A stretch of DNA of 46,217 nt from Betaproteobacteria bacterium. Its GTDB lineage: Bacteria; Pseudomonadota; Gammaproteobacteria; Burkholderiales; Burkholderiaceae_A. The DNA is taken from assembly GCA_018970545.1 (NCBI GenBank), contig JAGWWC010000007.1, positions 1 through 46,217 on the forward strand. The letters are read 5' to 3'. The notes beneath the pieces are model-generated. The model was not told where the DNA came from. It worked only from the letters and a program-made list of their open reading frames with translations, and searched no databases. Below are positions 29,191-30,679 of the stretch, piece after piece (the first letter of the stretch is position 1; each line of letters begins with the position of its first letter). A program made the position numbers and the translations under genes.

Positions 29191-29664
29191 TCAGGATGAG
29201 GCCAGGAGCCCGCAAACAAGGGACAGGCAGGCAATCGTTGACAGCCTTGCCCGAAGCCGGGGGTACCAAGGCGGCAAGTTGGCCCGATTCGCCAGATCCG
29301 CGTCCTGCCAATAGGCCAGCGCAAAGCCCACAATCAGCAGGCTCAGGGACAGAGAAGAGTCCATCGCTATTGCAAGAAAACCCATCAAAGCAGGGATCAC
29401 GCTCCAGATGTAGCCGCGGTGTTTTCGGGCCCGATCCAGGCCGGGCAGGGTCATCGCGAAGCCCCAGTGCAACGCCCCGACAAAACTCAGAATCACCGCG
29501 CCATAAGCAATCAACAGGCCTCGGGCAAACGCCATCGCATCAGGGGGGCTGAACATCACAAAACCGGCAAAACCAACAAACGGGATCAGGCCTCCGTAGC
29601 CCAGGGCCGCTATCAATGCGGGGGGCCGCATCACGGATGCTGAGGCAGGAGTCGGCACATTCAT
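29191..29664 (-). CDS. DUF3429 membrane protein
   Basis: A 157-residue hydrophobic protein with about five predicted membrane segments (for example PALIAALGYGGLIPFVGFAG and LLIAYGAVILSFVGALHWG). The FVGALHWGFAM segment is typical of DUF3429. Function is unknown. ATG 29664 is chosen because the family begins there; the frame to 29715 overlaps the HtrA-like gene. It lies 10 nt downstream of that gene, so the two are probably cotranscribed. Confidence 0.75.
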   Translation of the reverse strand: MNVPTPASASVMRPPALIAALGYGGLIPFVGFAGFVMFSPPDAMAFARGLLIAYGAVILSFVGALHWGFAMTLPGLDRARKHRGYIWSVIPALMGFLAIAMDSSLSLSLLIVGFALAYWQDADLANRANLPPWYPRLRARLSTIACLSLVCGLLASS

Positions 29665-29674
29665 TTTTCGCAGG

Positions 29675-30679
29675 CTACAAGCCGTCTGGTTTTTTGAAAA
29701 ATGTCGTCCGGTCAATCGAGTTAATCACCATCGGAAATCTTCGGCCATCGCGTTCCACCTCAATCGGTATCCGCGTGCCCGCCCCACCCAATGCCCAGGC
29801 ACTTCGGTATAAATCGGCCAGCGTTCGAACCTCTTTGCCCGCTACCCCCGTAATGAAATCTCCGGCCCGAAGGCCAGCCTGATCGGCAGGCCCATCTTTA
29901 CTGACTCGCAAAATCGCCACGTATCCGCTGCTGTCATCGGGCGTAATCCCCATCCACGGATGAATGCCTGAAGCGCGAACCCCTTTGGTCAGAAGATCCC
30001 GCTGAATGGGTTTTAGCAAATCGATCGGCACAAAAAGGTTTCCAGGCGAAAACGTTCCCTGCGCCATCGCGTCGCGAATATAGAGCGAACCTAGGCCAAC
30101 CAACTCGCCGCGCTCATTTAAAAGCGCTGCGCCCGCCCAGGCTGCATTGGGTGGAAAGGTGTAAAGCGCCGACTCCAGCAGATATTCCCAGCTGCCCGCA
30201 AACGGCCGACGTGACACCAGCTGGGTCGCTGAACCCGGACCCAGGCCCTCAAACGGCAGCACGATCATCAACTCCTGATCGATGAGTTTCCCGGACGATC
30301 CGATCGCAAGCGGCTTAAGCTTCAATGGCAACAGGGGCCGCAAGACTGCAAATCCAGTCGCGTGATCGTAGCCAATCACGCGTGCAGGATATGTCACACC
30401 GGAAGACACCATGACATCGACCTCTTCGGATTCGATGACCAGATAGCCGATGGTCAGGATATGGCCCTGCCCGTCGATGACCACGCCAGAACCAAGACGC
30501 TCGCGGCCCAGCGTTTCGTTTGATCGAGCATCTTCCACGGCCCGGCTACGCACCGCGACTACCGACTCCCGCAAGGCAGAGAGCACATCGGTCGAGGCGG
30601 TCTGCCCAATCGCTGGGGCCATGGCAAAGCCCTGCAGCCCCAAAAGGGCCAACAGTATCTGAGCAAGGCATCGGCGCAT
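29675..30679 (-). CDS. HtrA/DegP-like S1C pseudoprotease with PDZ domain
   Basis: A 334-residue exported protein of the trypsin-like S1C family: signal peptide 1-25, protease fold about 30-220, one PDZ domain about 235-325 (GPADQAGLRAGDFITGVAG). The fold markers are clear (GSGVVIDGQGHILT, and FVPIDLLKPI at the domain end), but all three catalytic residues are replaced. The His of TNxHV is Y79 (LTIGYLV), the Asp of TDLAV is G109 (ATGFAVL), and the Ser of GNSGG is A182 (AWAGAAL). It is therefore expected to bind rather than cut peptides in the periplasm. The frame is intact, so this is a divergent gene, not a decayed one. Confidence 0.85.
   Translation of the reverse strand: MRRCLAQILLALLGLQGFAMAPAIGQTASTDVLSALRESVVAVRSRAVEDARSNETLGRERLGSGVVIDGQGHILTIGYLVIESEEVDVMVSSGVTYPARVIGYDHATGFAVLRPLLPLKLKPLAIGSSGKLIDQELMIVLPFEGLGPGSATQLVSRRPFAGSWEYLLESALYTFPPNAAWAGAALLNERGELVGLGSLYIRDAMAQGTFSPGNLFVPIDLLKPIQRDLLTKGVRASGIHPWMGITPDDSSGYVAILRVSKDGPADQAGLRAGDFITGVAGKEVRTLADLYRSAWALGGAGTRIPIEVERDGRRFPMVINSIDRTTFFKKPDGL

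Follow-up and report, generated by a model that had tools for sequence, protein, structure and literature searches.

Proteases of the HtrA group (DegP, DegQ and DegS; MEROPS S1C, Do family) combine a trypsin-like double barrel with a following PDZ domain, and the active members carry a His/Asp/Ser triad together with the oxyanion glycine of the GNSGG motif. Relatives that no longer cut proteins are already known. For example, MamO of magnetotactic bacteria is an HtrA-derived pseudoprotease selected beside active paralogues; it keeps His and Asp, has Thr in place of Ser, and carries a surface di-His metal site and a TauE-like transporter domain (PMC4794232). PflC, a periplasmic HtrA homologue of the Campylobacter jejuni flagellar motor, has two PDZ-like domains and an atrophied catalytic triad, has lost the loop bearing the catalytic His and forms a motor disk (PMC12222027). 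In plants, the second domain of Deg7 and Deg16 are Deg/HtrA domains with mutated triads (PMC3473262). A 2008 survey counted only two inactive trypsin homologues in 91 genomes (PMC2605481). Inactive HtrA variants have chaperone activity (PMC11642142). With MamO, PflC and the degenerate plant Deg domains as precedents, the protein described below is not new in kind; no description of its family was found in the open-access literature searched.

This protein is encoded in the window, a 46,217-nucleotide stretch of contig JAGWWC010000007.1 from a Betaproteobacteria bacterium (Table 1). The original prediction of an HtrA-like protein with intact fold markers, signal peptide and PDZ domain holds. 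The N-terminus, read directly from the sequence, is a predicted Sec-type signal, MRRCLAQILLALLGLQGFAMAPAIGQ. Pfam Trypsin_2 aligns above its cut-off with residues 63-196 over all 144 model positions and is followed by a single PDZ domain, after which the chain ends. Domain order, predicted structure and fold matches place the protein in the HtrA/Deg fold superfamily as an S1C homologue, and DegS, DegQ and DegP are its best sequence and fold matches. However, it matches the NCBIfam models of that group (degP_htrA_DO, DegS, DegQ and DegP) far under their cut-offs (for example 78.3 against 416.2 bits and 73.7 against 408 bits). The MamO model scores 16.7 against a cut-off of 800. Among its matches there is no Pfam or NCBIfam model dedicated to the family.

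Table 1. Features of the pseudoprotease locus (positions within the window)
Feature	Position	Strand	Remarks
HtrA-derived pseudoprotease gene	29675..30679	-	334 aa + stop; ORF open, placement correct
Pseudoprotease protein layout			signal peptide ~1-26, pseudo-protease domain ~39-230, PDZ ~242-320
Predicted Sec signal peptide region	30602..30679	-	residues 1-26, read from sequence
Y79 codon	30443..30445	-	catalytic His position, motif ILTIGYLVIE
G109 codon	30353..30355	-	catalytic Asp position, motif DHATGFAVL
A182 codon	30134..30136	-	catalytic Ser position, motif PPNAAWAGAALL
FAGSWEYL, residues 160-167	30179..30202	-	family signature hairpin; loop L3 there in active HtrAs
PDZ domain, residues 242-314	29738..29956	-	Pfam PDZ_2 43.7 bits, over cut-off
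DUF3429 membrane protein gene	29191..29664	-	Pfam PF11911 E=1.4e-35; 10-base gap downstream of pseudoprotease

An AlphaFold2 monomer model, built with 67 family sequences, is confident (mean pLDDT 90.6, pTM 0.86), with disorder confined to the leader. Its best fold matches are Deg/HtrA proteases (Z 22-26); PflC is absent among the best 50 fold matches listed. In the model, a hairpin formed by strands 150-162 and 166-175, with an invariant WEY, takes the place of the sensor loop L3 of active HtrAs.

Aligned with active HtrAs from related genomes, the window protein has all three positions of the S1C triad replaced, with Y79 at the His, G109 at the Asp and A182 at the Ser position, which confirms the earlier observation at residue level. 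Unlike DegS, DegQ and DegP, the window protein has neither the triad nor the GNSGG oxyanion glycine, reading PPNAAWAGA where active HtrAs have NPGNSGG. The Gln of 'IQTD', which belongs to the activation cluster of DegP (PMC11642142), is missing too, both here and in the whole pseudoprotease family. Across 165 distinct members, Tyr at 79 and Gly at 109 occur in all 164 relatives. Because the pattern in the scan of genome contigs included GYL and might have biased the sample towards Tyr, the matches drawn by profile only were compared, and these gave the same answer (65/65 with both residues). At the level of sequence, the loss of His and Asp across the family is certain.

The serine position behaves differently. 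In one set of 99 members it holds S 62, A 18, G 11 and Q 8 times, and in another set of 65 it holds G 35, S 17, A 10 and Q 3 times. It switches at least 14 times on the family tree, which argues that no nucleophile is needed. The change from Ser to Ala is specific to some lineages, with position 182 drifting among S, G, A and Q. To the earlier question of whether orthologues share all three changes, the answer is yes within the genus; family-wide, Ser is variable and His to Tyr and Asp to Gly are the fixed changes. As a defining feature, the full triple substitution is only partly right because relatives often keep the Ser. Position 180, that of the oxyanion glycine, is occupied by N, A, D, E, S and others, with Gly in 2/99 and 1/65 members, and the former GNSGG loop is 2 to 3 residues longer in the family (PPxxxW-S/A/G-GA).

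An alternative intact triad, named beforehand as one finding that would overturn the pseudoprotease reading, was searched for in sequence. No column across the 165 relatives holds a conserved His, Lys or Cys (the best are K223 at 65% and H106 at 55%). This speaks against a substitute triad or dyad, and the candidate was rejected. Loss of proteolysis in the family is very likely. The surroundings of the old active site are nevertheless among the most conserved parts of the protein (T76, Y79, E83, D105, G109, W164-E165-Y166, P176 and G183), suggesting a cleft that may have been reused rather than neglected. Invariant residues comprise Y79, G109, W164-E165-Y166 (165/165 for each of the three), P176 and N214. 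In one betaproteobacterial clade, an insert of about 8-14 residues lies directly before the ILTIGYL motif (L116, L117, L127, L130, L123 and L136).

Members share the signature TxGYLxxE ... DxxxG ... GxWEYL, which the window protein carries, and all of them, including the window protein, form one clade (support 100) on a long stem from the active HtrAs. A class search showed a corresponding score gap, with members reaching E 1e-97 and the next active HtrAs with H/D/S starting from 1e-33, and no intermediates between the two were found in 369 genomes of the class. Profile searches recovered members in 52/200 genomes of the order, in five genomes from other orders of the wider class and in 35/398 genomes of the phylum, and a scan of 84,980 species yielded 73 loci. 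By organism title, almost all carriers belong to the alpha-, beta- or gammaproteobacteria, including Verticiella, Tagaea, Azospirillum, Rhizobium, Neorhizobium, Pararhizobium and Phyllobacterium; a few metagenome-assembled carriers titled as other taxa, such as Chitinophaga, look mislabelled. The family is large, old, common to alpha- and betaproteobacteria and apparently unnamed.

Near-identical orthologues of the window protein occur in two genomes (G016 and G013, 96 and 95% identity), with more distant ones in G014 (74%) and in two other genomes of the same bacterial family (44 and 37%). For the closest orthologues, at dS 0.4-0.8, dN/dS is 0.03-0.045 (larger distances being saturated), a sequence-based estimate that indicates strong purifying selection within the genus. 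Together with the triple change shared in the genus, this excludes both chance and decay. On the tree, the genus copy groups with AT-rich, Pelagibacterales-like genomes (L089, G909; GC about 0.3) and stands apart from the other copies in its bacterial family. The nearest relatives outside the genus are L089 and L154/L185 (G909:C1:315947-316858), and one Pelagibacterales-like carrier retains the gene in a single-contig genome of 1.2 Mb. This grouping points to a possible horizontal transfer or, alternatively, to differential loss.

Not all members appear to be exported. A simple scan of stop-to-stop frames for hydrophobicity found a signal-like N-terminus in 55/62 members of the branch of the window protein, and found it missing in 17/18 members of the other branch, which is mostly Rhizobiales. 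Among annotated proteins, four from Rhizobiaceae/Phyllobacteriaceae start directly with the domain (e.g. MDLEKIMRSVVAVRASVPEKAFTAGTLG), and leaderless Rhizobium proteins begin MDLEKIMRSVVAVR. The leaderless loci are L157-L180, L181-L184, L118-L121 and L128, whose annotated proteins begin a few residues ahead of the domain. The PDZ domain is retained in three annotated leaderless proteins and in two more leaderless ones that were scanned, as well as in exported members. Frame reading and composition thus suggest two compartments; if the leaderless branch is confirmed, a function common to the family cannot depend on periplasmic DegP.

Gene neighbours vary from clade to clade. The DUF3429 gene is arranged operon-like with the pseudoprotease gene in its own genus only (G000, G013, G014 and G016), and ORF neighbour clustering of 73 and then 48 loci showed no conserved neighbour beyond single clades. 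ATP synthase genes lie nearby in some Burkholderiales, and one family of alphaproteobacteria has an amidohydrolase-like gene and others there. An operon partner was consequently rejected as a guide to function. In three Rhizobiales loci, a small secreted DUF992 gene lies directly upstream of a leaderless member (L181:4200-4742, L184:4237-4773 and L170:2654-3181).

The best explanation, and a probable one, is a conserved non-proteolytic pseudoprotease that serves as a PDZ-bearing binding scaffold, chaperone/holdase or adaptor. A conserved non-proteolytic role had been suggested from the sequence, and it is strongly supported by the sharing of the family by many species, by purifying selection and by the missing alternative triad. 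A peptide-binding chaperone, as originally suggested, is plausible because fold and PDZ domain appear intact. In the proposed course of events, a duplicate of an ancestral HtrA would have exchanged His and Asp for Tyr and Gly, a change that happened once and became fixed, and would have lost the oxyanion hole and the activation cluster too. The Ser would have drifted later, with fold and PDZ domain kept throughout. The window protein would not cut proteins and, in its source species, would be periplasmic. There its PDZ groove, with the motif PWxG, and its remodelled cleft may hold envelope clients by their C-termini or by segments, which would make the protein a holdase, an adaptor or a scaffold. 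Members of the leaderless branch would do likewise with cytosolic clients. Ligand binding by the PDZ domain is assumed from its presence; in PflC, the groove of PDZ2 is not used for canonical binding (PMC12222027). More tentatively, and with somewhat less than even likelihood, the family may be an ancient undescribed one in which the HtrA fold was converted once into a peptide-binding module, with exported and cytoplasmic leaderless branches and the old cleft as a new conserved binding surface.

Other roles appear less likely. The protein could instead be a regulatory subunit for an active HtrA of the same cell (MucD-, DegS/AlgW- or HtrA-like paralogues), joining it in an assembly, activating or inhibiting it, or titrating substrates away from it. 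The draft genome that carries the gene (1.87 Mb, 118 contigs) encodes four Trypsin_2 proteins, of which the three besides the window protein keep H, D and S; MamO activates proteolysis by MamE without an active site of its own, and pairs of active and inactive HtrAs arose repeatedly in magnetotactic bacteria (PMC4794232). However, no HtrA gene linkage was noticed near the pseudoprotease, and the whole leaderless branch, as such, would not meet periplasmic HtrAs. This makes a regulatory subunit unlikely, and the predicted partnership with an active DegP, which may still apply to the exported branch, given the three intact HtrAs of this genome, is weak for the family as a whole, given the leaderless members and the lack of a wider gene neighbour. 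Co-option of the HtrA scaffold as a building block of an envelope assembly is harder still to credit. PflC, a triad-less HtrA homologue, forms the medial disk in the Campylobacter flagellar motor (PMC12222027), and a degenerate protease domain of plant Deg7 is used for oligomerisation (by the title of Schuhmann 2011, cited in PMC3473262), but no flagellar or secretion gene linkage was noticed, a leaderless branch exists and the family is kept in streamlined, AT-rich Pelagibacterales-like genomes. The window protein has one PDZ domain, as opposed to the two of PflC, and its family keeps the His loop with an invariant Tyr. The plant Deg7 and Deg16 proteins are eukaryotic, differ in architecture and are not known to be kin of the family of the window protein.

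That the protein is a cryptic protease working by some unconventional mechanism, or that the gene is decaying and has no function, is very improbable and largely refuted. Ser at 182 is kept in 62/99 and 17/65 members of the two samples, but the remaining members have A, G or Q there, no general base is conserved and the oxyanion glycine is lost; the low dN/dS rules out decay. Least credible is a metal-binding pseudoprotease like MamO. Both are degenerate HtrAs, but the window protein has only three His (H73, H106 and H240), none of them conserved, and no transporter domain; its family has Tyr and Gly where MamO keeps His and Asp, and the MamO model matches far more weakly than the DegP models (E 0.0018 against 5.6e-22). 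A MamO-like metal site was rejected for want of a conserved His.

An old family in which Tyr and Gly invariably occupy the His and Asp positions represents a natural experiment on what an HtrA does without cutting, and with its leaderless branch HtrA-type binding can be tested beyond the envelope. Members occur in cultured rhizobia and in Azospirillum, which makes genetics possible. Of four annotated plasmid records from Rhizobiaceae/Phyllobacteriaceae, three name the product 'S1C family serine protease' and one 'signal protein PDZ', so that some members, at least, bear the name of an activity that is very probably absent. Several genomes (G030, G153, G190 and G432) carry two or three family members, and in G432 one of these is exported and one leaderless.
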